From NCBI GenBank assembly GCA_011620345.1, contig WOZJ01000057.1:171925-235924 (forward strand): a DNA stretch of 64,000 nucleotides. The letters are read 5' to 3'. The notes under the pieces are model-generated. The model was given only the letters and a program-made list of their open reading frames with translations. It was not told where the DNA came from and searched no databases. This document shows, piece after piece, positions 1 to 43,119 of this stretch. Within the stretch, counting starts at the first letter, position 1, and every line of letters begins with the position of its first letter. Source of the stretch: Nitrospirota bacterium. GTDB taxonomy: Bacteria; UBA2233. The position numbers were made by a program, and so were the translations under genes.

Positions 1-79
1 GAGGCCGGGATCGAACCGGCATGGAGTTACCCCCGCGGGTTTTTGAGACCCGTGCGTCTGCCTATTCCGCCACTCCGGC
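1..79 (-). tRNA. tRNA-Leu (anticodon CAA), 3' end cut by window start
   Basis: Read on the minus strand, the cloverleaf starts with acceptor half GCCGGAG at position 79. It has a D-arm, an anticodon stem CGGGT/ACCCG around loop CTCAAAA (anticodon CAA, reading UUG), a long variable arm typical of tRNA-Leu, and a T-arm with TTCGATC. Only CTC of the 3' acceptor strand remains, so the last four paired bases and the tail lie outside the window. Confidence 0.93.
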
Positions 80-146
80 TAGCATGGTCTATGGGGTAGT
101 TAGGATACCATAACTTCTTAAGGCTTTGCTAATCCGCTATTGCACC

Positions 147-2003: not shown

Positions 2004-2330
2004 TACTTCTCCCTTTAAGGGCTTTCAATGGTTTAACGTATACTGAACGGCTATTCTATTTTTTATTTCTGGATCCAAGCGGTACAGAAGGCCTAACATG
2101 CCGACCGCCTGGTGCATGGCATGCCCTTCTTTGTTTGTTTCTGGACAAATTCTTGCGCTGGTTCCATACCATAGCGCACGAATTGCCCAAAAGTCAAAGG
2201 TGTAATCTTTAATAGACTAAATAAAATACGGCAAAAAAATCCCTTGAAAAACCCCCGATGGCATCGGGGGTTTTTCAAGGGGCAGGTTCACCTTAAGGGC
2301 GATATTCCTGGAGGAAGGAGGGATACGAGG
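2004..2330. other. Intergenic stretch with terminator
   Basis: This 327-base gap between the 13-haem gene and the trihaem gene contains the strong hairpin at 2241-2281 and an AT-rich patch near 2050-2070. I see no convincing gene in it. The only open frame, 61 codons on the minus strand, runs straight through the hairpin. Confidence 0.6.
2241..2281 (-). terminator. Rho-independent terminator behind the trihaem gene
   Basis: A near-perfect inverted repeat with 19-base arms. It begins CCCTTGAAAAACCCCCGAT, has a GGC loop centre, and carries A5 and T5 tracts inside the arms. A further A-rich stretch at 2232-2239 supplies U residues on the minus-strand transcript, so it can end transcription of the gene that stops at 2331. 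The symmetry means it could also act on plus-strand transcripts. Confidence 0.8.
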
Positions 2331-2756
2331 CTAAGGCCTTGCAGCTGCCGCCTGTGAGATCCCCTTGACAGTCATCGTCCCATCCGGCTGGACGCTGTGG
2401 CAATCCTGGCAGCGGCCGCCGTAGAACATGACAAAGTGGTTGTTTTCTCCCAAAAGGTGTCCTTGATGGAGAACTTTATAGAACTCTGGTGCGGCCGACC
2501 CGTTGTGACAAGCTTGCATGCATTGGGTAGGGGTGTTGCCCATGTTGGAGTCTACCTGGGGGTGCCTACCTTCTCTTTGCATTAAAACCATCATTGCGGG
2601 CAAGGAAAAGAGCGATGTGACCCCTTGTGGGGTATGGCAAGTCAGGCAGACAACGTCCTGATCGGCGGCCTTGGCTTTTGAAAGGCCGAAGCCAGGTACC
2701 GCTACCATGCCTATTAGGCCAAGCCCAAGAAAGGAAAGCGCCGTTTTCTTTTTCAT
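2331..2756 (-). CDS. Secreted trihaem cytochrome c with one CX3CH motif
   Basis: A 141-residue protein with a clear Sec signal peptide (KKK start, hydrophobic core, cleavage near AKAAD). Three haem sites are visible: CLTCH, then CMQACH (CX3CH), then CQDCH. Several further histidines (HP, HQGH, NNHF) could act as axial ligands. It should be a soluble or outer-face periplasmic electron carrier. The start is ATG at 2756 behind AAGGAGGGG. It lies 47 bases downstream of the 66-residue hydrophobic protein, likely on the same transcript, and is followed by a strong terminator. I do not recognise a named family. The mixed haem spacing links it to the small proteins at 11,870-13,720. Confidence 0.8.
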   Translation of the reverse strand: MKKKTALSFLGLGLIGMVAVPGFGLSKAKAADQDVVCLTCHTPQGVTSLFSLPAMMVLMQREGRHPQVDSNMGNTPTQCMQACHNGSAAPEFYKVLHQGHLLGENNHFVMFYGGRCQDCHSVQPDGTMTVKGISQAAAARP

Positions 2757-2803
2757 TGTGTATTCCCCTCCTTTTTTATTTTATTTGTCGCAAGTTTGTA
2801 GCG

Positions 2804-3004
2804 TTAATGGATCAAGCTCGTGACTCCGGGCATGATGTCGAGGAAGATCGGCCCAAGGATTGGAATCTGAGCAATTGAGTTCACTATGGGGAAAATGACT
2901 CCCATGAGCGTTGCGGCGAGGTCGGCCGGAATCGTGATGGGTAGGTTGACAATTGGTTGAATTAGCGGGCCGACAACCGGCTTGATCGAGGCAGCCGTGT
3001 TCAT
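2804..3004 (-). CDS. Small hydrophobic proline-rich protein, unknown
   Basis: A 66-residue protein without cysteine, rich in Ile, Leu, Val and Pro, with repeated PI/PL steps (GPLIQPIVNLPITIP, then a second hydrophobic stretch). The start at 3004 has a strong ribosome site AGGGAGGG at good spacing. The gene is the first of a likely two-gene unit with the trihaem cytochrome, which is why I accept it as coding. It has no charged N-terminus typical of a Sec signal. It could be a membrane-inserted or self-associating peptide, or a structural partner of the cytochrome. Function unknown. Confidence 0.6.
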   Translation of the reverse strand: MNTAASIKPVVGPLIQPIVNLPITIPADLAATLMGVIFPIVNSIAQIPILGPIFLDIMPGVTSLIH

Positions 3005-3205
3005 GGAAAACCCTCCCTTTTTTGTTTAACTAGAACATTGGCGCAAAAGCAGAACATATGCATACATTCAGGAGGAATTTTAGTCTCGTAACTGATGCCT
3101 TGTCAAGCCCTCCATACCATATGGTCCGTTTGACCATTTTGTGCATAATGTGCTAGGTTACAACCCAATATTGAGATTGAAAACTGGGCATCATTGAGGA
3201 GAACG

Positions 3206-5254
3206 ATGAAATTCATATTAAAGTGTAGTTGGGGTAGGATGAGCAGAATGTTGATGCCTTTAGGAAGAATCGGGCTCCTCGCTTTTTTTTGTTTAGGTCT
3301 TTCCGGGCCAACGGCATACGCGCTTACCAACGAAGATTGCCTGATGTGCCATGCCAACATGGAGCCAAGACTCGATGCATCCGTATTTTCTCAAAGTGCC
3401 CATGGCGGGCTGAACTGCCAAGACTGCCACGAGAACATCCAAGACGTTCCCCATCAAACGCAGCTCAAATTGGTTCGCTGCGGGAATTGTCATACGCAGG
3501 AATTCGCGGAATATCAGCTGGGGGTCCATGGCAAAGCTTTGGCCAATGGAACGAAAGACGTCCCTTCCTGCGCTTCTTGCCATGGAACTCATGATATTTT
3601 CCCTAAAAGTGATGTTCGCTCCAAAGTAAACCCCCTGAACCTCCCCGGGGTTTGTTCGGGATGCCATGCCAGCCAAGAGATCACTCGCCGCCATCCTCTG
3701 CCATCTCCGGAATTTATCGAAAGTTACCAGAAGAGCGTCCATGGGCAAGGTGTGTTGAAGAGTGGCCTGGTGGTCGCGGCCGTATGCTCGGACTGTCACG
3801 GTGGCCATAGAATCCTGCCCGCCTCGGACCCCGCGTCCTTGGTCAATCCAAAAAACATCCCTAAGACCTGTTCTAAGTGCCATGCAGGGATTTTTAGGGA
3901 TTTTACCAGGAGTGCTCACGGAGAGGCCTGGAGGGCTGGCAAGAGTTACGGGCCTGTGTGTACCACTTGCCATACGGCGCACAGTATTTCCTCACCCCGT
4001 ACGGCGGCGTTTCATGGGGGGATTGCCGAAGAGTGCGGAGGGTGCCATGTCGACAGGACCCCTAGCTATAGAGATACCTTCCATGGTCAAGCCACTTCGC
4101 TCGGTCTTATTCGGGCGGCAACCTGCCCGGACTGTCATACCGCGCATTTGAACCTTCCAAAAGAAAACCCTCACTCCAGCATCAACCCCAAAAATCTCCC
4201 CGGGACTTGCGGCAGGTGCCATGGACAGGTGTCCAAAGGGTTTATTCAATACGACCCCCATCCTGATCCAAAGGACAAATCAAAGAACGCTGTCGTTTTC
4301 TACACGTACACGTTCATGAATTGGCTGCTTTTGGGGGTGTTTGCCTTTTTTGGCCTTCATTCCGCACTTTGGATCCAGCGGAGCCTCGTTGCTTCGGTGC
4401 GTGGGGAGTTCCCTAGGCTTGACAAAGAGGGGCCATGGGTCCGGCGCTTTAGCCAGACCAACCGGATGACCCACCTAGTCATCGTGATCAGCTTCTTGCT
4501 CCTTGCAGCTACGGGACTGCCCCTGAAGTTCCACTACACACCCTGGGCAAAGGTTGTAGAGGCCATATTTGGCGGGATCGAGGTGACTCGCTATCTCCAC
4601 AAGCTTTTTGCCGTCGTGACGTTTGGATATGCGATTACGCATGTCAGCTATCTTGTCTACCGCATTTACAAAAAAGGCGAGCTAAACCTTCTGTACGGCC
4701 CTTTCAGCCTGACTCCGCGCCCCAAGGATGCGCTTGACCTTCTTGCAAACCTTCGCTGGTTCCTCTACATGGGGCCGAGGCCCAAGCTCGGACGCTGGAC
4801 CTACTGGGAGAAGTTCGATTACTTCGCCGTGTTTTGGGGAATTCCGATCATCGGAGGATCCGGACTCATGCTTTGGTTCCCGGGTTTTTTCACAAAATTC
4901 CTCCCCGGCTGGGTTCTGAATGTGGCCATGATCGTCCACTCCGAAGAAGCGCTTATGGCTATCGGGTTTATCTTCCTGTTCCACTTCTTCCACACCCACT
5001 TAAGGCCGGAAAGTTTTCCTTTAGACACCGTCATCTTTACTGGAAGCATGCCCTTGGAGCGGCTCAAGGAAGAAAGGCCGGAGGAGTACGAGCTTTTGGT
5101 CAAGAAAGGCGAGCTTGAACGCCTGATTGTCCCGGCTCCATCGAATAGTTTGCTGCGTGCCTCTCGGATCTTTGGCTTTGTGGCGCTTACCGTGGGGCTT
5201 TGCCTGATTTGGGCGATCCTGATCACGGCGGTACTCCATATGTTGGCTTTATAA
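3206..5254 (+). CDS. Fused 11-haem cytochrome c / cytochrome b quinol oxidoreductase (CbcL-like)
   Basis: A 682-residue inner-membrane fusion. A signal or anchor segment (about residues 16-38) is followed by a periplasmic domain with eleven CXXCH motifs (first CLMCH near residue 45, last CGRCH). A C-terminal HydB/b561-type cytochrome b domain follows, with several membrane helices and paired histidines (MTHLVI, YLHKLF, AITH, and a late HFFHTH segment). The layout resembles Geobacter CbcL, an inner-membrane quinol oxidase feeding extracellular electron transfer; that comparison is from memory. I chose ATG 3206 because GAGGAG lies five bases upstream; an in-frame TTG at 3194 is possible. The b domain shares the string FPLDTVIFTG with the separate cytochrome b at 8616, so the two are paralogues. 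Confidence 0.85.
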   Translation: MKFILKCSWGRMSRMLMPLGRIGLLAFFCLGLSGPTAYALTNEDCLMCHANMEPRLDASVFSQSAHGGLNCQDCHENIQDVPHQTQLKLVRCGNCHTQEFAEYQLGVHGKALANGTKDVPSCASCHGTHDIFPKSDVRSKVNPLNLPGVCSGCHASQEITRRHPLPSPEFIESYQKSVHGQGVLKSGLVVAAVCSDCHGGHRILPASDPASLVNPKNIPKTCSKCHAGIFRDFTRSAHGEAWRAGKSYGPVCTTCHTAHSISSPRTAAFHGGIAEECGGCHVDRTPSYRDTFHGQATSLGLIRAATCPDCHTAHLNLPKENPHSSINPKNLPGTCGRCHGQVSKGFIQYDPHPDPKDKSKNAVVFYTYTFMNWLLLGVFAFFGLHSALWIQRSLVASVRGEFPRLDKEGPWVRRFSQTNRMTHLVIVISFLLLAATGLPLKFHYTPWAKVVEAIFGGIEVTRYLHKLFAVVTFGYAITHVSYLVYRIYKKGELNLLYGPFSLTPRPKDALDLLANLRWFLYMGPRPKLGRWTYWEKFDYFAVFWGIPIIGGSGLMLWFPGFFTKFLPGWVLNVAMIVHSEEALMAIGFIFLFHFFHTHLRPESFPLDTVIFTGSMPLERLKEERPEEYELLVKKGELERLIVPAPSNSLLRASRIFGFVALTVGLCLIWAILITAVLHMLAL

Positions 5255-5583
5255 GCATGGACTCTGGAGGCCTCAGCCCTAGGGCTGAGGCCTCCAGAGT
5301 GTCGCCTTGAGCGGGGGCCTTTCTAGGGTTCGTATTGAACGCTCCTGCCACCCTTGTTTGTCATCCTATTCGTTGCCGTAGGGTAAGTGCGTTTGCTTGC
5401 CTAAGCAATCCAATATCCTTGTTGTTTGTGTGTTTGGGCTAATTGTTCAGTAACGCCCGGAGCAGGGCCCGTTTTCAGCGTATACTTGCCATGCATTCAT
5501 TTATCTTGGGAATGGGCAGAAACAAGCAATACGGGTATACTTGTGTAGGTCAAGAGTTTATTCCGTGGTTTACATAAAAAAAC
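5255..5583. other. Intergenic stretch with hairpin and promoter-like sites
   Basis: This 329-base gap holds a perfect 40-base palindrome at its left end, then two GTATACT boxes (near 5479 and 5535) that could be -10 elements for the M56 peptidase gene. The second lies about 45 bases upstream of its start. No good -35 match is visible at standard spacing. I see no gene here. Confidence 0.5.
5261..5300 (+). terminator. Perfect 40-base palindrome, probable transcript-end hairpin
   Basis: Twenty-base arms (ACTCTGGAGGCCTCAGCCCT and its exact reverse complement) start seven bases after the CbcL-like stop codon. The hairpin is very stable but no T-run follows, so it may stabilise the 3' end or act as a non-canonical terminator. 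It could also be a protein-binding site. Confidence 0.55.
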
Positions 5584-6567
5584 ATGAATGTTCTTTTTGA
5601 GTCTTTCTTGCACGCGATCGTGGATGCCGTCCTTGTAGGGGTCGGGCTTCGGGTATGGGGGATTGCCAAGGCAGAGCCCAGACAACGCTTCATGTCCCTT
5701 ATTTTAATCCTTCCCGTCTCGACGCCAATTCTTTTTTATGGGTGGAGTACGGAGGGGAGCTTGCCTGGTTTTTATCGTGGAGCCCTCTTTAATGGTGAGA
5801 GATGGCTCCACGTAGAGCTATTAGGCATTCCTTTCTTTCGATGGGGGTTTTTCGTGTTAATGGGGGCTTGTGCGGCCGCCTTCTTGTTCCAAGAGCTTTT
5901 GCCTATCTACTGGCACTTCAGACAATCGAAACGCATGCGAAGGTTGCTTAAGGACCATTGGGAGAAAATAATCCCCCTGGAAACGCTAGGCATCCCCCCT
6001 ATAAAAGAGCTCGAGGGGTTGCGCATTCAAGTGTTGCCGGACCATTGGGGTGGCATTAGCTCTCTCTACGGAGGTTCGCCCAGAATTCTGATAGGGGAAG
6101 GGCTGCTTGAAGAGCTTGACCGAGAGGAGCTTCGTGCGGTTGTGGCGCACGAAATCGCCCATCTTGGCATAGGGCGCAGGCCTTTTATGCTCCTAATGTA
6201 TGTGTTTCGAGCGATTGCTTTCTTAAACCCAGTCGCGCTTGGTGCGTTTCGGTTCATCGCTAACGAAGAAGAGTGCGTGTGCGATGACAGGGCGGTGTGG
6301 CTGACTTCTGTCAGCCCACTAGCCTTGGCAAGCGCCCTTAAAAAACTCTACCAGCCCGATCAAGAGCCCGAGCTTGCGGACTGTAGTAAACAGGAGGTGC
6401 CAGGACTGTTCCGGAACCTATCTGCCGTGGGGCTAAGAGAGCAGCTTGACAAACGCATCGAAAGGCTTCGTTCCAGAACCTACTCCTCGGACGACACTGA
6501 GTATTGGTCAGAGCTGTTTATCGTGACGCTTGGGTGCCTGGCGTTTTCTTTTGCCGTTGTGGGCTAA
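5584..6567 (+). CDS. M56-family (BlaR1-like) membrane metallopeptidase
   Basis: A 327-residue integral membrane zinc peptidase. The catalytic HEIAH lies near residues 191-195, and the third zinc ligand is expected in the NEEECVCDD segment about 30 residues later. Hydrophobic helices are visible near residues 36-52, 83-105, 203-222 and at the C-terminus. Family members such as BlaR1/MecR1 cleave a repressor after sensing a signal. This one lacks the large C-terminal sensor domain, and no BlaI-type repressor is next to it. No clear ribosome site precedes ATG 5584. It sits between two cytochrome modules and is translationally close (3 bases) to the next gene, so the two probably work together. 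Confidence 0.78.
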   Translation: MNVLFESFLHAIVDAVLVGVGLRVWGIAKAEPRQRFMSLILILPVSTPILFYGWSTEGSLPGFYRGALFNGERWLHVELLGIPFFRWGFFVLMGACAAAFLFQELLPIYWHFRQSKRMRRLLKDHWEKIIPLETLGIPPIKELEGLRIQVLPDHWGGISSLYGGSPRILIGEGLLEELDREELRAVVAHEIAHLGIGRRPFMLLMYVFRAIAFLNPVALGAFRFIANEEECVCDDRAVWLTSVSPLALASALKKLYQPDQEPELADCSKQEVPGLFRNLSAVGLREQLDKRIERLRSRTYSSDDTEYWSELFIVTLGCLAFSFAVVG

Positions 6568-6570
6568 AAA

Positions 6571-7095
6571 ATGGGTCGATTGAAGGGTCTCCTTTGTTTT
6601 TGTATGTTCGGCGTCTTGTTTGCTGGAGCACTGTGGATCCTGAACGCTGTCCCTCTTTTGCTCAAGCAGGAAGGTTTCAGGTCCTTAAAAAACATTGGGG
6701 AAACGCAAGCCTACCTAGGCACAAGGCTTTCACTTCCCCGTTATTTTTCTCCCGGGCTTGTTTGGCCACCGTGTGCAATCCTAGCCCAACGAAAGCCGTT
6801 TCCCGCCTACGTTGTCCAATTTCAAAAAAGGGGGAGGGACGGGGTTTCGTTGGTCCTTTCGATGTCACCCGCTAGACACCCGCTATCCGGGGTCCACATC
6901 GAGCCCGCCATGGGCTTGCGTCGCATGCGTGTCAAGCTTACAGACCAAAGCGCGGAGTTGATGATAGGTCGCCTTCGCTCTGGGGAGCGTTGTTGCCTGC
7001 TTTCTTGGGTGCAGGCTGCCAAGAGATGGACGTTAAGCGGGGTGTTGCCCCCTTCCGAGATCCTGAAGATGGCCGAGAGTATGGACTTGCCTTAA
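6571..7095 (+). CDS. Membrane-anchored protein of unknown function
   Basis: A 174-residue protein with one hydrophobic N-terminal segment (about residues 6-30) and a mostly extracytoplasmic remainder. It has no haem motif and no family I recognise. ATG 6571 lies three bases after the stop of the M56 peptidase, so the pair is co-translated and this is a candidate partner, inhibitor or substrate. The C-terminal part contains a pair of adjacent cysteines (RCCLLSW). Confidence 0.6.
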   Translation: MGRLKGLLCFCMFGVLFAGALWILNAVPLLLKQEGFRSLKNIGETQAYLGTRLSLPRYFSPGLVWPPCAILAQRKPFPAYVVQFQKRGRDGVSLVLSMSPARHPLSGVHIEPAMGLRRMRVKLTDQSAELMIGRLRSGERCCLLSWVQAAKRWTLSGVLPPSEILKMAESMDLP

Positions 7096-7106
7096 AAAAT
7101 ACCTCA

Positions 7107-7136
7107 TTGCATTGAATTCAAAATACCCTGTATACT
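7107..7136 (+). promoter_or_regulatory. Putative sigma-70 promoter of the split cytochrome operon
   Basis: TTGCAT at 7107-7112 and TATACT at 7131-7136 are separated by 18 bases. The predicted transcript start, near 7143, falls inside the AGGAGGT at 7141-7147. That argues that translation begins at GTG 7171 using AAGGG at 7159-7163, rather than at an upstream codon. Confidence 0.5.
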
Positions 7137-7170
7137 CTCAAGGAGGTACAAACTGGAAAAGGGCGATACT

Positions 7171-8601
7171 GTGAGGCTAACGCAGGGGTTTGTAGGGTTA
7201 ATTTTTGTTGGTCTAGGTCTGGCTCCTACAATGGCTTTGGCTGAGACGACGACCCAGCAAGAGCTCGGTCAATGCATGTCTTGCCATGCCAAGCCAGGGC
7301 TCGTGAAACGCTTGGGAAAGAATGAGAAAGTCTCGCTAACCCTCGACCTTCAAGCCTACCGGGCCTCGGCCCACAGCTCGCTCGTTTGTCAGGATTGCCA
7401 CACGCGGTATTCCACGAAGGCTCATCCGGTAGGTTCGTATACGAGCCGGGAGGAGCTCGCCAGGGAGCACTCCGGGGCATGCACGAGTTGTCATTCGCTC
7501 GATCAGCTAAGCGCGTTGCCCGTCCATGAAGATGTCCTGAAGCCAGGGCATCCGGTTGCATGCTCGAGTTGTCATGGGGCTCACGAGATCCAGCGGGTCG
7601 TGGGCGGCGGGGCTATGGTGAAGGAGCGTGCCTACTGCCTTTCGTGTCACGAGCAGCACATTGAGATGACCTTCGAAAATGGGGAGACCAAGGATATTTA
7701 TGTCGAGCTTCGTTCGCTCCTTGCCTCTCCGCATGCGAGCCTTGCATGCTCGGACTGTCACGTGGGGTTTTCAAGAGATCACCACCCGGATCGCTCGTTT
7801 CAGGACGGGAGGTATTACACGCTTGTTTTATCCGAGAGCTGTAAGCGTTGCCATTTCGACAAGTATACCCGGACTCTAGACAGCATGCATTACCGAGTCC
7901 TCATGAAGGGAAATGCGAATGCGCCGGTATGTACCGACTGTCACGGCTCGCACGGTATCTTGCCTGTCGGCAAGGACCATTCCATAAGCGCGAAGCGCTG
8001 CATGCGATGTCATGAGACCATTTATACGACCTATACAAAGAGTGTGCATGGAAAGGCCTTGTTAGGTGAACACAACATGGATGTGCCCGTATGTGCCGAC
8101 TGCCACAAGGCACACGAGATTCAAGACCCAAGGACGCTAACCTTTCGTGACCGGATCCCGGAGATGTGCGGGAACTGCCATGCCAACAAAGAGCTCATGT
8201 CTCGCTATGGGCTTTCCCCAGCAGTAGTGAAAACATACCTCCAGGATTTTCACGGAGTTACGCTTTCGCTTTACAAAATGCAAAGGGAACTAGAGGGTAC
8301 AAGCTCGGCCAATCCTATTGCTGTATGTTCAGACTGCCACGGGATCCATGACATCCAGAAGCTCTCGGAACAAGAAACGGGCCTTGTACGCCAAAACCTG
8401 CTCAAGCGCTGCCAGGCATGCCATCCTGGGGCCACCCAGCGGTTTCCCGATGCTTGGCTCTACCACTATGAGCCAAGCCTTGAAAAGGCCCCCTTGGTCT
8501 ACGCAGTAAACCTTTTTTACAAAATTTTCATCCCGTTCATGGTCGTGGGATTGCTGTTGCAGGTTTTCTTACATGCCTGGCGCTACATCGTGAACCGTTA
8601 A
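7171..8601 (+). CDS. 13-haem membrane-attached cytochrome c (c subunit of split CbcL-like enzyme)
   Basis: A 476-residue protein with a Sec signal (cleavage near TMALAE), thirteen CXXCH motifs between about residues 35 and 430, and a C-terminal membrane helix (about residues 446-470) ending in basic residues. It should be periplasmic and anchored by its C-terminus. The next gene encodes the matching cytochrome b, so together they correspond to the fused protein at 3206 with its two parts separated. The start is GTG 7171 with AAGGG upstream. An in-frame CTG at 7153 sits closer to a stronger AGGAGGT, but the predicted transcript start makes it less likely. The gene begins an operon running through cytochrome b, kinase and response regulator. 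Confidence 0.85.
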   Translation: MRLTQGFVGLIFVGLGLAPTMALAETTTQQELGQCMSCHAKPGLVKRLGKNEKVSLTLDLQAYRASAHSSLVCQDCHTRYSTKAHPVGSYTSREELAREHSGACTSCHSLDQLSALPVHEDVLKPGHPVACSSCHGAHEIQRVVGGGAMVKERAYCLSCHEQHIEMTFENGETKDIYVELRSLLASPHASLACSDCHVGFSRDHHPDRSFQDGRYYTLVLSESCKRCHFDKYTRTLDSMHYRVLMKGNANAPVCTDCHGSHGILPVGKDHSISAKRCMRCHETIYTTYTKSVHGKALLGEHNMDVPVCADCHKAHEIQDPRTLTFRDRIPEMCGNCHANKELMSRYGLSPAVVKTYLQDFHGVTLSLYKMQRELEGTSSANPIAVCSDCHGIHDIQKLSEQETGLVRQNLLKRCQACHPGATQRFPDAWLYHYEPSLEKAPLVYAVNLFYKIFIPFMVVGLLLQVFLHAWRYIVNR

Positions 8602-8615
8602 AAAGGGTGGGAACC

Positions 8616-9371
8616 GTGACCGAACGAAAAATGGCCTTTGTGCAACGCTTGTCTTGGGTGCGAATCATCGAGCACTGGGTGAATGCTTCCGTGTTCATCC
8701 TTCTTGTCGTTACAGGGCTTTCCCAAAAGTTCTATACGTTCGAGCTGTCCCAGCGCTTGATCCTGTTTTTTGGCGGCATTGATTCGACGCGCTTGATTCA
8801 TCGTGCCTGCGGGGTGCTGTTTGCCGCCGTTTTGGTTCTCCACATGACCGTCGCGGTTGTAGGGGTCGTGCTGAAGCGTTGGCAGCCGACGATGCTCATC
8901 AACAAAAAAGACTTCTTTGACGCCATAGACAACCTAAGGTACTACTTTGGGCTTTCCGATCACCCGGCAGCTTGCGACCGTTATGATTACAAGCAGAAGT
9001 TCGAATACTGGGGAGTGGTCATGGGAGGTATTGTCATGGTGGCTACGGGGTTTGTCCTTTGGTTTCCGACGGTGGCGACGTATCTGCTACCCGGAGAGCT
9101 AGTGGCCGTATCGAAGGCCATCCACACGAACGAGGCTATGCTTGCCTTCCTGATCATCTCCATCTGGCATATCTACAACGCCGTCTTTTCCCCGGAGGTG
9201 TTTCCTTTAGATACGGTGATCTTTACGGGGAAGATTTCGAGGGAGCGCATGATGCACGAGCACCCTCTAGAGCTTGCAAGGCTCGAGGGAAAAAGCTTAG
9301 AAGAGCTCCTTCAAGAAAAAGAGGGCTTTTCTCATGCATCCAGCCCTTTAAAGCCCCCTCCGAACGACTAA
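8616..9371 (+). CDS. Cytochrome b subunit (HydB/b561-type) of the split quinol oxidoreductase
   Basis: A 251-residue integral membrane di-haem cytochrome b. Membrane helices carry histidines suited to haem b ligation (IIEHWV, LIHRACG, VLHMTV, AIHTNEA, IWHIYN). The segment FPLDTVIFTG near the end is shared with the b domain of the fused protein at 3206. It should oxidise quinol and pass electrons to the 13-haem protein encoded 14 bases upstream. I chose GTG 8616, eight bases after AAGGG; GTG 8607 is in frame but overlaps that site. The C-terminal tail of about 40 residues is polar and cytoplasmic. Confidence 0.83.
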   Translation: MTERKMAFVQRLSWVRIIEHWVNASVFILLVVTGLSQKFYTFELSQRLILFFGGIDSTRLIHRACGVLFAAVLVLHMTVAVVGVVLKRWQPTMLINKKDFFDAIDNLRYYFGLSDHPAACDRYDYKQKFEYWGVVMGGIVMVATGFVLWFPTVATYLLPGELVAVSKAIHTNEAMLAFLIISIWHIYNAVFSPEVFPLDTVIFTGKISRERMMHEHPLELARLEGKSLEELLQEKEGFSHASSPLKPPPND

Positions 9372-9387
9372 CCCAAACAGGCCACGC

Positions 9388-11175
9388 GTGCACCTCCCCC
9401 AATTAACTCGCCGCATCCTCCTGCTCGTTATCGCAAGCCTTCTGCCGCTCGTTCTGGGCTATGCCCTGATCCTTGCCGCTTCGGTCCGGTATGGCAATCA
9501 AGGTGCGCTACGATTTACGCAGACCAGGGCAAGGATTCTTTCCGAATCGGTTAAGCTCCATTTGGAGAAAAACCTCGTTTGGCTCTCGGACATCGCGCTC
9601 GGTCTTTCTTTTGGCGAGCCCGCCAAGGAGACCCTTAGACAGTCAAACCCCTACTCGTTGCTCCGTCATGGGTTGATCGTCACCGATCTAGAGGGGAACG
9701 TCAGGGCCTCATGGCCGGAAACAAGCATTCGCAAGCTTGCCCCGGAAGTGCTGGCTAGGTTGAAGGAGGAAGGTTCCCCGAGCAGACCTTTCGTATCCGG
9801 CCTCGTGGCCAAAGAGCCCTCGGGCCGAACCACAGGCTTTATGCTCGCGCCGGTACGCGAGAGCGCCGGCAAGATTAAGGGTTGGGTGGGAGGAGAGTTG
9901 GACTTCCAAGACCCTGTTTTCGTTCGGCTTCTTGAAGCAGGCAGAGAGCCTTCAGACAACTTCGTCGCAATTTTAGACGATGCCGGTCGGGCTTTTGCGT
10001 TTATAGGAGACTCTAGGGCCTTTCTCGTTAAAGGGCATGCTGGACTGATTAACCAGGCCCGCTACGATGAGAGCCCTCGGACTGTTCGCTGCAAAGGGTG
10101 TCACAAGAAAGGCGCTCGTGGGGGCGTGTTGGCCGTTGCTTCCGTTACGCTCGCCCCTTGGTGCGTCGCGATCTTAACCGTACCGAATGGTCCATCGGGT
10201 TCTCCGCTTGGCCTGTGGAAGGCCTTTGGGCTTTTGGGATTGGGATTGTCGCTGGGTGGACTTATTCTTGGCGTGGGGATGTCCCGCTCGATTCTTCAGC
10301 CTATACGCTCACTGATCGAAGGGGCAAAAAGGATCGGGGACGGTGATCTCTCCATCCCCGTCCCCATCCAAGGAAGCGACGAGATTACGGTTTTGGCGGA
10401 AGGATTGGAGCAAACCCGGCTTAGGCTCCTCGAGTCGTTTCTAACGATCCAACGGGTTAATGAAGAGCTCGAGGCCAAGGTTCAAGAGAGGACCATGCAG
10501 GTGCAGTCGCTCTTAAGGAAGGTCATCGGCTCCCAAGAGGAGGAGCGGAAGCGAATTGCACGCGAGTTACACGACGTAGTCTTGCAGGACATCGCCGCAT
10601 TTTTGATGAAGCTAGACGTGCTCGCGTTGAGCGAGCGCAAGGATCAAGGACGAATCGAGAAGATGCGCGGGCTTTTGACCAAAGCGATGGAGGATATTCG
10701 TGCCATCATTCAGGGCTTGCGTCCGAGTATTCTTGATGATTTGGGGTTGGATGAGGCCCTAAGGTGGGTTGTGGACCGAAGGTTTCAGGATCAGGAATGC
10801 GAGGTCTCGATTGAGGTCAAGGGCTATTCTAAGGGGCAGTTGGACTCAAACATAGAAACTGTTACGTTCCGGATTGCCCAAGAGGCCCTCACCAATGTCC
10901 TTAAGCATGCAAGAGCGAGCCGCGCTGTCCTCCGGCTGAGTTGTTCGAGTCGTAGGCTTACCCTTTTCGTTCATGATAACGGGGTAGGGTTCGCGGCCGC
11001 CGAGTACAAGAAAGAGGTCCGTACGACGGTCGGGTCGGGCATTGGGCTCCAGGGTATGGCAGAAAGGGCCTCGCTTGTCGGGGGGAGGCTCAAGATCCGG
11101 TCATCTCCGGGTAGAGGGTCCCATGTGCGGCTATTCATCCCTTTAGGGAGGTCAGTAGATGAAACAGCCGATTAG
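9388..11175 (+). CDS. NarL-family sensor histidine kinase with a c-type haem motif in its periplasmic domain
   Basis: A 595-residue membrane sensor. TM1 is near residues 9-32. A periplasmic domain (about 33-275, Cache-like in layout) follows and contains CKGCH at 235-239 close to its end. TM2 is near 277-299, then HAMP and a coiled-coil. A HisKA_3 dimerisation domain has phospho-acceptor His395 in RELHDVVLQ, and an HATPase domain has N-box TNVLKHA and G-box GSGIGLQGM. The haem motif suggests it senses redox state, oxygen or NO, or electron flow through the neighbouring cytochromes. It follows the cytochrome b gene by 16 bases and overlaps its response regulator by 17. The start is GTG 9388, with a weak ribosome site. 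Confidence 0.88.
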   Translation: MHLPQLTRRILLLVIASLLPLVLGYALILAASVRYGNQGALRFTQTRARILSESVKLHLEKNLVWLSDIALGLSFGEPAKETLRQSNPYSLLRHGLIVTDLEGNVRASWPETSIRKLAPEVLARLKEEGSPSRPFVSGLVAKEPSGRTTGFMLAPVRESAGKIKGWVGGELDFQDPVFVRLLEAGREPSDNFVAILDDAGRAFAFIGDSRAFLVKGHAGLINQARYDESPRTVRCKGCHKKGARGGVLAVASVTLAPWCVAILTVPNGPSGSPLGLWKAFGLLGLGLSLGGLILGVGMSRSILQPIRSLIEGAKRIGDGDLSIPVPIQGSDEITVLAEGLEQTRLRLLESFLTIQRVNEELEAKVQERTMQVQSLLRKVIGSQEEERKRIARELHDVVLQDIAAFLMKLDVLALSERKDQGRIEKMRGLLTKAMEDIRAIIQGLRPSILDDLGLDEALRWVVDRRFQDQECEVSIEVKGYSKGQLDSNIETVTFRIAQEALTNVLKHARASRAVLRLSCSSRRLTLFVHDNGVGFAAAEYKKEVRTTVGSGIGLQGMAERASLVGGRLKIRSSPGRGSHVRLFIPLGRSVDETAD

Positions 11176-11818
11176 GGTTTTAATCGTGGACGATCATGCA
11201 CTCTTACGTGAGGGCATTGCGGCCATCCTTCAGACGGCCGAGGACATCCGAGTTGTGGGCGAGGCGGCTGACGGGCTTGAAGCGATTAAAAAGGTTGAAG
11301 TGTTGCACCCCTCGATCGTTCTTATGGACATAGCCATGCCCGGGCTTGGCGGGCTCGAGGCGACGCTAGAGATTAAAAAACTGTTCCCGGGGGTTCGGGT
11401 GCTCGTGCTTACCCAGTACGACGACAAAGAGTACGTTGACAGGTTTCTCAAGGCAGGCGCTTCTGGTTTTATCCTTAAGCGTGCGCTGGGTAGGGAGCTC
11501 ATCGATGCGGTTCGGTCCGTCGATAAGGATGAGGTTTATCTCCATCCAGCAATCGTCAAGGACGTAGTCGAAGGATATTTAACGAAGGACAAGCCCGCTG
11601 CTTCTCCCTATGACAGGCTTACAGATAGGGAGAAACAAGTCCTCAAATTGCTTGCAGAGGGGCATACTCACAAAGAAGCGGCGAGCCTGCTGGGAATTGG
11701 CGTGAAAACCGTTATTACCCACCAGGCTCACCTCCAAGAAAAGCTTGGGCTCTCTAGCCGTTCCGAACTGATCCGGTTCGCCATCCAGCAAAAAATCATC
11801 CGAATCGACACTCCGTAA
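11159..11818 (+). CDS. NarL/LuxR-family response regulator
   Basis: A 219-residue two-component regulator. The receiver domain occupies about residues 1-120, with acidic pocket VDDH, phospho-acceptor Asp57 in LMDIAMPG and a conserved TQYDD and K segment. A LuxR-type helix-turn-helix follows (LTDREKQVLKLLAEG to the end). It is the cognate partner of the overlapping haem-kinase gene; ATG 11159 is preceded by AGGGAGGT inside the kinase 3' end. Its DNA targets are not visible. Adjacency suggests the small secreted proteins at 11,870-13,720 and the upstream cytochrome operon. Confidence 0.92.
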   Translation: MKQPIRVLIVDDHALLREGIAAILQTAEDIRVVGEAADGLEAIKKVEVLHPSIVLMDIAMPGLGGLEATLEIKKLFPGVRVLVLTQYDDKEYVDRFLKAGASGFILKRALGRELIDAVRSVDKDEVYLHPAIVKDVVEGYLTKDKPAASPYDRLTDREKQVLKLLAEGHTHKEAASLLGIGVKTVITHQAHLQEKLGLSSRSELIRFAIQQKIIRIDTP

Positions 11819-11871
11819 TTAGCCTTCCGGGCACGAGCCCAAAGCCCTCACGTCTCTCGATCGCTCCTTCC

Positions 11872-12060
11872 TTACTGAACCTTCGGCGCTGTGGGAGCTC
11901 CGCTCTTGGGCGGACACTTGGCAATTTTGTCATCACCATGGCATTTCATCCCGCACCCGGGCTTGGCATTCCCACACATGTTGGGCTTTGCCAGAAGGGG
12001 AGCGCTAAGAATGCAGAGCGCCACGAATGCCGAGGATAAACAAAGGGCTGCGCGCTTCAT
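11872..12060 (-). CDS. Small secreted four-cysteine CX3CH protein (paralogue A)
   Basis: A 62-residue precursor: a 24-residue Sec signal ending ..LLA, then a mature peptide of about 38 residues with the pattern MCxxAKPGCxxxCHGDDK and KCPPK. It has four cysteines and one CX3CH site (CGMKCH). ATG 12060 has a very strong AGGAGGT eight bases upstream. The last 24 residues (CHGDDK onward) are identical to paralogue E at 13,526-13,714. A longer frame from 12,153 is unlikely because it has no ribosome site. The site could covalently bind haem c, or the four cysteines could bind a metal or Fe-S cluster. No family recognised. Confidence 0.78.
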   Translation of the reverse strand: MKRAALCLSSAFVALCILSAPLLAKPNMCGNAKPGCGMKCHGDDKIAKCPPKSGAPTAPKVQ

Positions 12061-12133
12061 GCAATACCTCCTTTTTTGGTTGTGTTGTTGACCTCCAAGA
12101 ATAACTTCCACCGCCATTTCTCTTTTTTCAAGG

Positions 12134-12162
12134 AGTATACCAAGAATAGTCACAAAAGTGAA
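12134..12162 (-). promoter_or_regulatory. Putative promoter of paralogue A
   Basis: On the minus strand, TTCACT (12162-12157) and an extended -10 TTGGTATACT (TATACT at 12139-12134) are spaced by 17 bases. The leader to ATG 12060 is about 67 bases. The same TTGGTATACT box precedes paralogue E and the trehalose gene. Confidence 0.5.
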
Positions 12163-12264
12163 GGGCCTTTTATGCCATTAGGAAAGAAACCATGAAACTA
12201 TACCATAAGGATCTAATGAGGATATATTGTACATTCCATGCGAACAAATCATATTATTGCAGGG

Positions 12265-12293
12265 TTGCATTCTCGTTATTTTTGCTTTAAAAT
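12265..12293 (+). promoter_or_regulatory. Sigma-70 promoter of the small-cytochrome operon
   Basis: TTGCAT at 12265-12270 and TAAAAT at 12288-12293 are separated by exactly 17 bases, in an AT-rich stretch. The predicted start near 12,300 leaves a leader of about 34 bases before ATG 12334. Confidence 0.6.
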
Positions 12294-12333
12294 TCCATTG
12301 AGTTCAACATTCAACCCCAAAAGGAGGGAGCCT

Positions 12334-12567
12334 ATGAAAAAGCTCGCGTTTCTTACGGCTGCGGGGTATTTCGCCCTTGCATTTCTCTTTGCACCCGGTG
12401 TGTGGGCAAGGTCCAGCATGTGTGGGCAGGCAAAGCCCGGGTGTGGGGGGAGTTGCCACGGCGACGACAAGGTGCAGAAGTGCCCCAAAAAGAAATCTGG
12501 TGCTCTACAGCAATTCTTCGGCCTGGATGGCTTGGAGTCTGGCTTGAGTAAGAGCTTGCTTCAATAA
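12334..12567 (+). CDS. Small secreted CX3CH protein (paralogue B)
   Basis: A 77-residue precursor with a Sec signal ending GVWA, then MCGQAKPGCGGSCHGDDK and KCPKK. This is the same four-cysteine motif as paralogues A and E but with a longer tail (FFGLDGLESGL...). The CX3CH is CGGSCH. ATG 12334 is preceded by AGGAGGGAG; the frame is open further upstream but lacks a ribosome site there. It is the first gene of a four-gene run that ends at a strong terminator. Function unknown; candidate monohaem cytochrome or metal-binding peptide. Confidence 0.8.
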   Translation: MKKLAFLTAAGYFALAFLFAPGVWARSSMCGQAKPGCGGSCHGDDKVQKCPKKKSGALQQFFGLDGLESGLSKSLLQ

Positions 12568-12590
12568 CCCAACAAAAGAAGGAGGTTGCG

Positions 12591-12782
12591 ATGAAACGCC
12601 TTCAGATTGGAATCCTAAGCATTGCCGTACTCTGCGGCTTCGGGATGTTTTTGGGCTCGCAGGCCTTTGCTTCAGGCGGGCTGACGGTTACCGGGTGTCC
12701 TTGCCATGGGGCCATGAAAACTCAGGTTCAGCAGCCGAGCATGGATGGCCTGCTCAAGGCTCTCCTTGGAAACGCCAAGTAG
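12591..12782 (+). CDS. Small secreted CXCH protein (C)
   Basis: A 63-residue precursor with signal peptide (cleavage near QAFA-S) and a mature part of about 36 residues. Its only cysteines form GCPCHG, a C-X-CH arrangement shorter than a standard haem site. The tail is LLKALLGNAK, nearly the same as the tail of the next protein (LLKALLGQAQ). ATG 12591 follows GAAGGAGG, 23 bases after the previous stop. Unknown family. If haem is attached, the one-residue spacing would be exceptional; alternatively the histidine and thiols bind a metal. Confidence 0.75.
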   Translation: MKRLQIGILSIAVLCGFGMFLGSQAFASGGLTVTGCPCHGAMKTQVQQPSMDGLLKALLGNAK

Positions 12783-12813
12783 CGGGAAATAAACCATAAA
12801 GGGAGGAGACGGC

Positions 12814-13095
12814 ATGTCGAGCAAAAAGGCTATTGCAATAGGAGTAATGGCGGGCCTGATGGGGAGTGCGGCGTTAGCTAGCAACGCGTTTGCCATTGCG
12901 CAGACCGGGCTTCTGGGTACGCTCTCCGGTCCACTCATGCAACCTTTGGTTGCCTGGGGTTGTGCACACACTTGCCACGAGAGCGAGGTTTTCCCGGATG
13001 TCGTTGCCCATAACGCTGGCCTTTTGAAGGCCCCGGTCAGCGGCCAGGCCTCTCAAGAAGCTCTCCTAAAAGCGCTTCTTGGGCAAGCACAATAA
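12814..13095 (+). CDS. Small secreted CX3CH protein (D)
   Basis: A 93-residue precursor with signal peptide (cleavage near NAFA). A hydrophobic stretch follows (TGLLGTLSGPLMQPLVAW), then the only cysteines in CAHTCH (CX3CH), then a tail rich in Ala and Leu ending LLKALLGQAQ. The shared tail with protein C suggests a common docking or assembly helix. ATG 12814 follows GGGAGGAG, 31 bases after the previous stop. A single haem c with histidine and perhaps another histidine (VVAHNAG) or methionine as axial ligands is plausible. No family recognised. Confidence 0.75.
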   Translation: MSSKKAIAIGVMAGLMGSAALASNAFAIAQTGLLGTLSGPLMQPLVAWGCAHTCHESEVFPDVVAHNAGLLKAPVSGQASQEALLKALLGQAQ

Positions 13096-13120
13096 ATACA
13101 AACCAAGAAGGGGTAGGAGC

Positions 13121-13405
13121 ATGAAAAAGCTTGGACGTTTATCCATTGCCGGTATTTTAGGAGTAGGGCTAATGGCCACTCCTTTGTGGGCTTCGGGAAC
13201 GGTAAGGCCGTTGCAGTCCGTAGGTAACATCTGCGGGCTCTACATGTGTCATCCGATGATTGAATCCGTAACCTCATTGGGAGGAAACGTTTTGGGTTCT
13301 ATGGGACTTTTCTCCATGCTCGAAAACTGGGAAACAGTCGGCATGGGCTCGCCCTACTACAAGGCAGACGTCCAGCGAACGTTGCGCTATAGCCCAGAGC
13401 GTTAG
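13121..13405 (+). CDS. Small secreted CX4CH protein (F)
   Basis: A 94-residue precursor with signal peptide (cleavage near LWA-S) and the only two cysteines in CGLYMCH (CX4CH). The mature part is rich in Gly, Ser and Met (several Met residues could serve as axial ligand) and ends in a basic, polar tail. CX4CH haem sites are known in some cytochromes c3. ATG 13121 follows GGGGTAGGAG, 25 bases after protein D. It is the last gene of the small-protein operon, ahead of the terminator at 13441. No family recognised. Confidence 0.75.
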   Translation: MKKLGRLSIAGILGVGLMATPLWASGTVRPLQSVGNICGLYMCHPMIESVTSLGGNVLGSMGLFSMLENWETVGMGSPYYKADVQRTLRYSPER

Positions 13406-13440
13406 CCCTGTTTGAGCAAGGCGTTGTTTGCTCTAAGCCA

Positions 13441-13478
13441 ATCAAGCCCTGGCCTTTAAAGGCCAGGGCTTGATTTTT
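13441..13478 (+). terminator. Rho-independent terminator of the small-cytochrome operon
   Basis: A perfect inverted repeat with 17-base arms (ATCAAGCCCTGGCCTTT and its complement) is followed directly by TTTT. It lies 35 bases after the stop of protein F. Confidence 0.88.
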
Positions 13479-13525
13479 AAGGGGTAAAGCTCCGACAGGA
13501 TAAATTACTTACCCTGTCGTCCTTA

Positions 13526-13714
13526 CTACTGAACCTTCGGCGCTGTGGGAGCTCCACTCTTGGGCGGGCACTTGGCAATTTTGTCATCACCGTGGCATTT
13601 CCCGGCGCATCCAGGCTTGGCTTGCGGACACATGGCAGGGCGGGCCATCAAGGGGGCGGTGAAAATCCCTAGCGCAACGAGCGCCGCGGACACCCCAAAA
13701 ACTGTGCGCTTCAT
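13526..13714 (-). CDS. Small secreted four-cysteine CX3CH protein (paralogue E)
   Basis: A 62-residue near twin of paralogue A. The signal peptide differs at many positions, but the mature part is MCPQAKPGCAGKCHGDDK followed by exactly the same C-terminus. Over the last 73 coding bases the two genes differ at only three sites, all synonymous (AGC/AGT, TGT/TGC, CAT/CAC). ATG 13714 follows AAAGGAGGAGCTTT. It lies on the minus strand, facing the end of the plus-strand operon, so A and E flank the operon. Function as for A: possible haem c or metal binding. Confidence 0.78.
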   Translation of the reverse strand: MKRTVFGVSAALVALGIFTAPLMARPAMCPQAKPGCAGKCHGDDKIAKCPPKSGAPTAPKVQ

Positions 13715-14090
13715 AAAGCTCCTCCTTTTCGTTTGTGTTGCCGGCTTTCATTGAAGCCTTGCATGCTAAGCGCAACATGCGCTCCAAAGTATACCAAAAA
13801 AATTGAGAACATATACTCCATCAACGGCGCCCTTGCGTGTCTCGGGCTATGCATCCATCAGGAAGCCGTACTGCACCTGTCGGCAGGAGTCTTGGTATCG
13901 AGCATGCCAGGTATAGGCTTTGATCGTAGAGTCAGCCCTTAATGGATGGTATCGAAAGCGTTCATGGTGTGCTTTTACTCAGAAACTATGGCCACCGGAT
14001 GATCGTTTGCTGGGATTTTTTGGACGCTTCCCCTTCCCGTAGCCTTGGGATTGGACTATAGTAAAAGAAACAACTTGAGTGAGGCGTTTT
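13715..14090. other. Intergenic stretch with promoter of paralogue E
   Basis: This 376-base gap holds a minus-strand TTGGTATACT box (TATACT at 13793-13788) that fits the start of paralogue E. Its predicted leader contains short inverted repeats (AGCGCA/TGCGCT, GGCTT/AAGCC). Towards guaB there is TATAGT near 14057 with no good -35. I see no gene in it. Confidence 0.5.
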
Positions 14091-15572
14091 GTGGAGGGAA
14101 ACGAGAGGTATCCTGTAGCGCTTACCTTTGATGATATCTTGCTTCTGCCGGGAGAATCGGACTTTGTTCCTGCAGAAGCCGACGTGCGCACAAGGGTTTC
14201 CAGGGCTATTCCGCTCCATATCCCCGTCCTTTCGGCCGCGATGGATACCGTGACCGAGGCGGCAACGGCTATTGCGATGGCCAAGGAGGGTGGGCTTGGC
14301 ATTATCCACAGGAACATGCCGATCGATAGGCAGGCCAAGGAGGTGGAGCGGGTCAAAAAGTCCGAATCGTGGATGATCGTCGACCCGGTTACGCTCAAGC
14401 CTGAAGCAACACTCTTAGAGGCGATCGAGATCATGGACCGCCACAAGATCTCGGGTGTACCAGTGACCCGCTCCGGGAAGTTAGTGGGGATTCTTACCCA
14501 TAGAGACCTACGCTTTGTGCGCGACCTGGACCGTCCAGTCGATACAGCAATGACCAAGGATGTGGTTAGCGCCAACGAGGCTACCACGCTAGAGCAGGCG
14601 ATGGATATTCTACAGGCGCACAAAGTGGAAAAACTTCCCGTTGTAGACCCTCAGGGCAATTTAAAGGGCTTGATTACGGCCAAGGACATTCAAAAGGCGA
14701 AAGAGGCACCGTTTGCGCTAAAAGATGCATTCGGAAGGTTACGGGTGGGGGCGGCCGTAGGCGTGGGAGATATTGCCATCGAGAGGGCCCAGGCCGTGAT
14801 TAAGGCAGGTTGCGACATGGTTGCGATCGATACGGCGCATGGCCACTCCAAGGCCGTTCGCGATACCCTCATGCAAATCAAGCGCTCTTTCCCGAAAGTT
14901 CCAGTTCTTGCGGGTAACGTAGCGACGTCCGAAGGGGCGAGGTTTTTGATCGAGGCTGGCGCGGATGCGATCAAGGTGGGCGTAGGCCCTGGTTCGATTT
15001 GCACAACCCGTGTCATTGCGGGCGTTGGCGTCCCGCAGTTGAGCGCAGTGCTCGCGTGCGCGAAGGTAACGCGGGATGCAGGGGTGCCGCTGATCGCGGA
15101 CGGAGGGATCAAATACTCTGGCGATGTGATCAAGGCGTTGGCCGCGGGTGCAGACGCCGTAATGATTGGCAATTTGTTCGCCGGTACGGACGAAAGCCCC
15201 GGAGATTTAGTTCTTTATCGGGGAAGGGCCTACAAAGTCTACAGGGGAATGGGCTCGATCGAGGCCATGAAAGAAGGCTCGGCGGACAGGTATTTCCAGG
15301 CTTCAGGGCCATCCGATCAGGCCAAGTTTGTCCCAGAGGGGATTGAAGGGCGCGTTCCGCTTAGAGGGCCCCTCAAGTTTGTCCTTCAGCAGCTTGTGGG
15401 AGGGCTTAAATCTGGAATGGGCTACGTGGGGGCAAGGACGCTCGACGAGCTAAGGCGCAAAGCAAAAATGGTTCGTATTTCTCCCCAAGGGCTAAGGGAG
15501 AGCCACGTCCACGACGTGGTCGTCACGCGCGAGGCCCCGAACTACCCTCTTTCCGAATCAATGCTTGATTAG
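14091..15572 (+). CDS. guaB: Inosine-5'-monophosphate dehydrogenase
   Basis: Catalyses NAD-dependent oxidation of IMP to XMP, the first committed step to guanine nucleotides, in the cytoplasm. The start of the barrel ([11 protein letters not shown]) is followed by a tandem CBS pair at about residues 90-205. The catalytic loop is GPGSICTTR, with Cys304, and a flap segment follows. About 493 residues is the usual length. I prefer GTG 14091, six bases after TGAGG, over GTG 14079, which lacks a ribosome site. guaA follows after three bases, so the two are co-translated. Confidence 0.95.
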
Positions 15573-15575
15573 CCG

Positions 15576-17129
15576 ATGGAAAAAATTCTTATTGTAGACT
15601 TCGGGTCTCAGTATACCCAGTTGATCGCGCGTGCCGTTCGGGAAGTCGGAGTATTTTCCGAGATCATCCCCGTCTTGGCGCTTCAAGAATCAACTGTGGA
15701 GGCGCTCAAGAATCAAGGGGTCATCGGGGTGGTCCTCTCGGGAGGACCCTCGAGCGTGTACGAGAATAAGAACGAAGCGCTTGGCCGCCAGGTCACGCGC
15801 TTGGTCGGGGAAGTCCCCATCCTTGGCATCTGCTTTGGCTACCAGCTGCTCGTGAGTTTACTCGGTGGCGAGGTCAAACAGGGCTTGGTTCGTGAGTATG
15901 GACCTGCAAACGTGAAGGTGGATGCCCCGAAAGGGCCATTTCGCACCTTTTTGCCCGGAGAAACCCTGCGAGTTTGGATGAGCCACGGAGACGTCATCGC
16001 TTCATTGCCCGATGGCTTCCAGCCCTTCGCCCACTCGGAGTTTGTCCCGTTTGCCGCTTCGGGAAACCCCATGCTCCATGCCTACGGCGTTCAATTTCAC
16101 CCTGAGGTGTGGCACACCAAAGAGGGGTCAAAAATTCTCGAGAGTTTTCTTCTCGACATTTGCAATGCTTCGAGAGATTGGCAAACCGAACAAATCTTGG
16201 AGCTCCTTTCTAAAGACATTCAAGCCAGGACCAAAGGCCGAGAGATACTCCTTGCGCTTTCCGGCGGGGTGGATTCAAGCGTTATGGGGGTGCTCCTGAA
16301 GCGCATGGTCGGCGAACGCCTCCATAGTTTTCTCGTGGATACCGGGCTTTTGAGAGAGGGGGAGCCAGAAAGCACGCTCAAGCTGCTTGAACCGCTCGGG
16401 CTGAATGTCCATGTCGTGGATGCCAAGGACAAGTTTATGGAAGCGCTCGAGGGCATAAGCGACCCGGAGCTCAAGCGCAAGCGTATCGGAGGCCTATTCA
16501 TCGATCTTTTGAGAGAAGAAGCGCGTAACATAGGGTTCCCCGAGCTTCTTGCGCAAGGAACGCTCTACCCGGACGTGATCGAATCCATGCCCGTAGTTGG
16601 CCCTTCGGATACGATCAAATCCCACCATAACGTGGGCGGGTTGCCCAAAGACATGCCGTTCGAGCTCTTGGAGCCCTTCCGCATGCTCTTTAAAGACGAA
16701 GTTCGGCGAATCGGAGAGGCGCTAGGGATACCAGAAGAGGTCGTTTGGAAAGAGCCCTTCCCTGGTCCTGGGCTCGCTGTGCGTATCCTTGGACCGGTAG
16801 ACGAGGCTAGCGTAAAAACCGTCAGGAAGGCGGACGCGATCGTCATGGAAGAGGTATCGAGGTCCGGGATTGGCCGGAGCCTATGGCAGGCCTTTGCCGT
16901 TTTGTTGCCAGTGAAGTCGGTCGGCGTTAAGGGCGACAAGCGCTCGTACGAGAACACCGTTGTCCTTCGTGCCGTCGAGAGCCGCGACGGGATGACTGCC
17001 GGCGTGGCCAAGCTTCCTTACGAGTTGTTGGAGCGCATCGCCCACCGCATCGTGAACGAAGTGGAAGGTGTGAACAGGGTTGCTTACGACATTACCTCAA
17101 AGCCCCCTGCCACGATCGAGTGGGAGTAA
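15576..17129 (+). CDS. guaA: GMP synthase (glutamine-hydrolysing)
   Basis: Converts XMP to GMP using glutamine and ATP. The N-terminal class I glutamine amidotransferase domain has the nucleophile in LGICFGYQ (about residue 88) and the partner histidine in QFHPEV. The ATP-pyrophosphatase domain carries the P-loop SGGVDSSV near residue 230, and the C-terminal dimerisation domain ends TSKPPATIEWE, as expected. 517 residues is standard. It forms an operon with guaB. Confidence 0.97.
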   Translation: MEKILIVDFGSQYTQLIARAVREVGVFSEIIPVLALQESTVEALKNQGVIGVVLSGGPSSVYENKNEALGRQVTRLVGEVPILGICFGYQLLVSLLGGEVKQGLVREYGPANVKVDAPKGPFRTFLPGETLRVWMSHGDVIASLPDGFQPFAHSEFVPFAASGNPMLHAYGVQFHPEVWHTKEGSKILESFLLDICNASRDWQTEQILELLSKDIQARTKGREILLALSGGVDSSVMGVLLKRMVGERLHSFLVDTGLLREGEPESTLKLLEPLGLNVHVVDAKDKFMEALEGISDPELKRKRIGGLFIDLLREEARNIGFPELLAQGTLYPDVIESMPVVGPSDTIKSHHNVGGLPKDMPFELLEPFRMLFKDEVRRIGEALGIPEEVVWKEPFPGPGLAVRILGPVDEASVKTVRKADAIVMEEVSRSGIGRSLWQAFAVLLPVKSVGVKGDKRSYENTVVLRAVESRDGMTAGVAKLPYELLERIAHRIVNEVEGVNRVAYDITSKPPATIEWE

Positions 17130-43065: not shown

Positions 43066-43075
43066 TTGGTATACT
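43066..43075 (+). promoter_or_regulatory. Extended -10 promoter of the trehalose gene
   Basis: TTGGTATACT, an extended -10 element (TGG plus TATACT at 43070-43075). The best -35 at 17 bases is weak (TTCCGC). The transcript would begin near 43,082 and carry the hairpin at 43098-43119. Confidence 0.42.
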
Positions 43076-43097
43076 TAACATCTGGGCTACGAAAGAG

Positions 43098-43119
43098 GCC
43101 GCATCCTTAAGGATGCGGC
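43098..43119 (+). other. Leader hairpin upstream of otsA-otsB fusion
   Basis: A perfect 22-base palindrome, 11-base arms GCCGCATCCTT, in the predicted 5' leader and 62 bases before the start codon. No T-run follows, so it is not a standard terminator. It could stabilise the mRNA or bind a regulator. Confidence 0.45.

Follow-up and report, generated by a model that had tools for sequence, protein, structure and literature searches.

Gene Layout of the Operon and Its Flanks

Four very small genes were located on the forward strand of the window, the 64,000-nucleotide stretch of DNA analyzed here. Gene 1 (12334..12567, +) encodes 77 aa, comprising a signal peptide, a four-cysteine head (MCGQAKPGCGGSCHGDDKVQKCP) with the site CGGSCH, and a Leu-rich tail. 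Gene 2 (12591..12782, +; 63 aa) has a signal peptide, the segment GCPCHG with its CPCH site, and the tail SMDGLLKALLGNAK, while gene 3 (12814..13095, +; 93 aa) has a signal peptide, the segment GCAHTCHESE with its CAHTCH site, and the tail SQEALLKALLGQAQ. Gene 4 (13121..13405, +; 94 aa) likewise encodes a signal peptide, followed by CGLYMCH. Each gene carries a single C-Xn-C-H site, with n = 3, 1, 3, and 4, respectively, and a motif scan of all four identified no CXXCH. An earlier note on this DNA had described four tiny genes with one such site each, and the coordinates, lengths, and motifs were all confirmed. The N-termini show a basic start and then a hydrophobic stretch of the Sec-signal type, as judged by eye. 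Predicted cleavage leaves mature parts of ~36–70 residues, all with an even number of cysteines (four in the gene-1 type and two in genes 2–4).

The operon is flanked by two genes on the reverse strand that the earlier note overlooked. Paralog A (11872..12060, −; MCGNAKPGCGMKCHGDDKIAKCP) and paralog B (13526..13714, −; MCPQAKPGCAGKCHGDDKIAKCP) each encode 62 aa, are 73% identical to one another, and are relatives of gene 1. An element of the extended −10 type (TTGGTATACT) was found in identical form at 12133–12143, 13787–13797, and 43066–43076, preceding paralogs A and B and an ORF at 43113. Three matches, with one mismatch allowed, were reached by 2 of 100 shuffles.

Purine-rich ribosome sites precede the starts of genes 1–4 (AAAAGGAGGGAG, AGAAGGAGG, AAAGGGAGGAG, and AAGGGGTAGGAG, respectively). 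The genes are likely one transcription unit, given intergenic gaps of 23, 31, and 25 nt and a single strong terminator. This intrinsic terminator (13440..13475, +) is an uninterrupted 16-bp RNA hairpin followed by a T run. Its folding energy was −30.5 kcal/mol (z −5.9), and none of 200 shuffles was equally good, in agreement with the perfect terminator described earlier. The hairpin is symmetric and may also be usable by the convergent paralog B. The putative promoter TTGCAT-17-TAAAAT, read directly at 12265..12293 (+), is present, but the description of it as clean did not hold: it agrees with the consensus at 8 of 12 positions, a candidate scoring 9/12 is found immediately upstream (12228–12257), and the shuffled region yields 1.5 such sites on average. 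A stricter promoter scan did not report it.

Relatives and Conservation of the Cys-His Core

The mature heads of paralogs A and B can be aligned with that of gene 1, following the pattern [MYF]-C-x2-AKPG-C-x3-C-H-x-D-x4-K-C-P, and between A and B the mature parts are better conserved than the signals. A fourth gene-1-type copy lies on another contig of the genome (C34), directly 3' of a gene for an outer-membrane efflux protein (TolC-like, PF02321). The sister genome, UBA2233, encodes an ortholog of this copy in the same position behind its own TolC-like gene. The order of TolC-like gene and small four-cysteine exported protein can be seen in both genomes (L009, 4408–6392; L008, 17–1829). The dN/dS of this ortholog pair was ~0.34; therefore, these proteins appear to be real and under purifying selection. 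The gene-1 family comprises four genes in the source genome and one in the sister species. The earlier account of four stand-alone proteins was accurate as to the four genes themselves, but gene 1 has further family members in the genome.

Across the five aligned family members, four cysteines and one histidine are invariant (C-x6-C-x3-C-H-x7-C), a conservation that rests on few, closely related sequences. The family also has a Lys-rich, basic head. No second invariant His or Met was found in the mature part of the five-member alignment. Loss of the CH residues in homologs had been named as an outcome that would refute the earlier interpretation; the CH pair was kept in every relative found, these being few and close sequences.

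Kinship among the operon genes was investigated by local alignment of the mature parts against shuffles. The p values were ~0.008 for genes 1 and 2, 0.004 for genes 1 and 3, and 0.002 for genes 2 and 3; they are uncorrected for the pairs tried, 0.002 is the floor of the test, and CXnCH itself supplies part of the signal. Genes 2 and 3 have an LLKALLGxA tail in common, and the tail of the TolC-linked members (SSKLLEGFTGLESL) aligns also with LQQFFGLDGL of gene 1. The tail pattern, which was written post hoc, had just four matches among 1,393 ORFs in 124 kb: genes 2 and 3 and both TolC-linked members. The outer cysteines are absent from genes 2 and 3, but CXnCH and the Leu-rich tail are kept. 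We infer from these similarities that genes 1–3 have a common ancestor, with genes 2 and 3 probably retaining Cys-Xn-Cys-His while lacking the outer cysteines. The amphipathicity of the Leu-rich tails was no higher than in shuffles. AlphaFold2 produced no confident fold (mean pLDDT 53 and 46), a result of little weight since the alignments were thin.

Gene 4 showed no convincing relative in the mature-part alignments, in the source genome and UBA2233, or in the PDB. Weak, partial PDB matches to aminotransferases were set aside as chance. Gene 4 keeps the CH adjacency without detectable kinship to the other members. Shuffled mature peptides of genes 1–4 contained C-X(1–4)-C-H in only 1.5, 0.6, 0.5, and 0.14% of cases, respectively, which argues that the recurrent motif is not due to chance; genes 1–3 look related and are not independent draws in this test, whereas gene 4 seems independent. 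The sole mature histidine stands directly behind the second cysteine in the TolC-linked relatives and in all but one of the six peptides of the operon and its flanks. The exception is gene 3, which has further histidine.

Searches of Pfam, NCBIfam, PHROGs, PADLOC, and the PDB returned no meaningful match for the peptides, and a pattern-based scan of 84,980 species recovered the gene-1 family outside the source genome only in UBA2233. The sequence family is new to the libraries searched, and the earlier statement that no described family has this layout stands. A profile search of 386 genomes found no gene-1-family match outside the genus, and neither a plasmid search nor a scan of viral contigs found anything outside it. 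Genes 2, 3, and 4 were searched in the source genome and UBA2233, and gene 3 additionally in 59 genomes. Two candidates were rejected. In NCBIfam, paralog B weakly matched BRANT over residues 8–32 only (mostly signal peptide), which was taken as chance, and an apparent further family match (L005) was spurious, sitting inside a MiaB-like gene. The genus relative is 'Nitrospirae bacterium UBA2233'. Two genomes of 1.8–1.89 Mb, one from oil-contaminated soil and the other from a tailings pond, are on record for the phylum UBA2233, 'Candidatus Cutipiota' (PMC11382960). The locus itself falls in an assembly gap of the sister genome: contigs C18 and C59 of UBA2233 end on either side of it, with ~19 kb unassembled, guaB included, and the only match of window positions 1–16055 to the sister genome was a tRNA.

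Cytochrome Neighbors and Candidate Functions

The surroundings of the operon are rich in heme proteins. The protein at 150–2003 (−) is ImcH/NapC-like and membrane-associated, with 12 CXXCH sites and one CX3CH (CGKVCH). Homologs of ImcH standardly carry an atypical CX3CH beside a membrane segment, together with 5–9 CX2CH sites, fewer than the 12 found here (PMC6295460). A small triheme protein at 2334–2756 (−) contains CMQACH and two CXXCH sites and matched no family above the curated cut-off. CX3CH occurs in both of these multiheme neighbors and is normal in ImcH homologs, so non-standard sites in this genome extend beyond the small proteins. Two multiheme/b561 sets follow to the left of the operon (3194–5254 and 7171–9371). 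Next to them, a histidine kinase (9388..11175, +; HAMP, HisKA_3, HATPase) has a single CXXCH, CKGCH, within the sensor part and is paired with a LuxR-type response regulator (11159..11818, +). The kinase is possibly a heme-based redox sensor and, judged from position alone, a possible regulator of the operon. It had no match above 1e-20 in the sister genome, where there is an assembly gap. Heme maturation machinery is encoded in the genome, with matches to CcmF_C, Cytochrom_C_asm, and CcmE; CcmE, CcmF, and an ABC ATPase in the CcmA position lie ~16–20 kb upstream (left) of the window. Two tandem hydrophobic ORFs of ~95 aa that look alike (METINAFAQ..., MEGITAFSQ...) were observed at L018 9629–10228.

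A histidine adjoining the second of two cysteines is the hallmark of c-heme attachment. Given this Cys-His adjacency and the cytochrome context, heme attachment is the most economical interpretation, which we put forward tentatively and at somewhat under even probability. The proteins would be phylum-restricted, Sec-exported peptides whose core consists of two cysteines with a histidine directly behind the second. The Ccm system would attach one heme at C-Xn-C-H, yielding a very small c-type heme peptide, and a disulfide would join the two outer cysteines in peptides of the gene-1 type. The periplasmic role of such peptides could be that of minor electron carriers or heme-based redox peptides, and the adjacent kinase/regulator pair may control their expression. 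We favor this scheme of tiny exported carriers with the same reserve. Consistent with it, Cys-Xn-Cys-His is the core retained in genes 2 and 3 even though the outer cysteines are absent. System I recognizes little beyond the motif and modifies 12-residue CXXCH peptides, so small size is no barrier to heme attachment (PMC3601427).

Several observations weigh against heme. A literature search found no cytochrome study for the CXCH spacing of gene 2, and a single spacer residue may leave the two cysteines unable to reach both heme vinyls. Four cysteines are invariant in the gene-1 family, more than heme requires, and a conserved second axial ligand is absent. A distal heme ligand could come from a partner protein. 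The cytochrome c profiles of Pfam and NCBIfam gave no match for the peptides, and one relative has an outer-membrane efflux protein, not cytochromes, as its genomic neighbor. The earlier proposal of small monoheme carriers retains its C-Xn-C-H sites, export signals, and Ccm system, but lacks CXXCH, a cytochrome profile match, and a conserved distal ligand. It is doubtful that these mini-peptides, down to ~36 residues, carry one covalent heme each, CXCH included, and are the smallest dedicated c-heme proteins. The proposal that they are building blocks of an extracellular electron conduit was not borne out. Nothing indicates a surface location, and an MtrB/PioB porin was found in neither of the two genomes, a weak negative given that the control matched in one genome and below the cut-off.

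The same four invariant cysteines, single histidine, and Lys-rich basic head of the gene-1 family would also suit heme-free thiol-imidazole peptides of the periplasm that act as a sponge or shuttle by binding a soft metal such as Cu(I), Zn, or Hg, one of them beside a TolC-type channel. We consider such thiol-metal binding nearly as likely as heme attachment, and likewise short of probable. Metal sites can tolerate the variable cysteine spacing (1, 3, 4), the TolC link is present in both genomes, and a tailings pond and oil-contaminated soil are the sources of the phylum's two genomes (PMC11382960). Yet we noticed no metal transporter, ATPase, or metalloregulator next to either of the loci, and genes 2 and 4 have few ligands to offer, namely two cysteines and one histidine. 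The strict CH adjacency is unnecessary for a metal site, and the surroundings are cytochromes.

That adjacency, across members of little similarity, also argues against small disulfide-bonded exported peptides with a structural, signaling, or antagonistic role, in which the histidine would be incidental. The even cysteine number in all mature parts and the several lineage-restricted paralogs with changing tails are in keeping with such peptides. The CXC of gene 2 would make a strained disulfide, however, and no immunity, processing, or dedicated export gene was noticed nearby; we regard this explanation as unlikely. Far less probable still are bufferin-like RiPPs, Sec-exported cysteine peptides in which an MNIO enzyme forms thiooxazoles that bind copper. 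Bufferins are typically tiny cysteine peptides with a Sec signal (PMC12452194), but the peptides here matched neither DUF2282 nor any Pfam model. MNIO (PF05114) was absent from both genomes as assembled (a few percent being unassembled), while control genomes were positive, and this explanation was rejected.

Significance and Comparison with Known Systems

These peptides form a tight family in a phylum for which only two genomes are listed, each from an environmental sample. If heme is attached, the known natural substrates of Ccm would be extended by a set of mini-proteins that have CXCH, CX3CH, and CX4CH between them. The peptides would then be among the smallest natural c-heme proteins, modified 12-residue CXXCH peptides being already known (PMC3601427). 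If it is not, they would constitute a new family of exported thiol-imidazole peptides.

Compared with known systems, the peptides have Sec export, C-Xn-C-H, and a Ccm system in the genome in common with ImcH/CymA homologs and with the CX3CH/CX4CH sets of Gallionellaceae. Those proteins are larger and their sites are mostly CXXCH, whereas the peptides here are tiny and single-site. In contrast to ImcH/CymA-type cytochromes, one peptide has CXCH, some have two extra invariant cysteines, and the heme is putative. Bufferins (Buf1/DUF2282, Buf2, EGKCG/oxazolin) are alike in being tiny, Sec-exported cysteine peptides, but here the genome has no MNIO enzyme and the peptides have no profile match. Periplasmic metal chaperones can be linked to efflux, CusF being an example. 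One relative resembles CusF-type chaperones as a small exported protein beside an outer-membrane efflux gene, although the two have no common motif or profile, and no RND pump or ATPase was seen beside the relative. From their sequences, the peptides appear most like a c-heme peptide or a periplasmic thiol chelator, and would at present be filed under neither.
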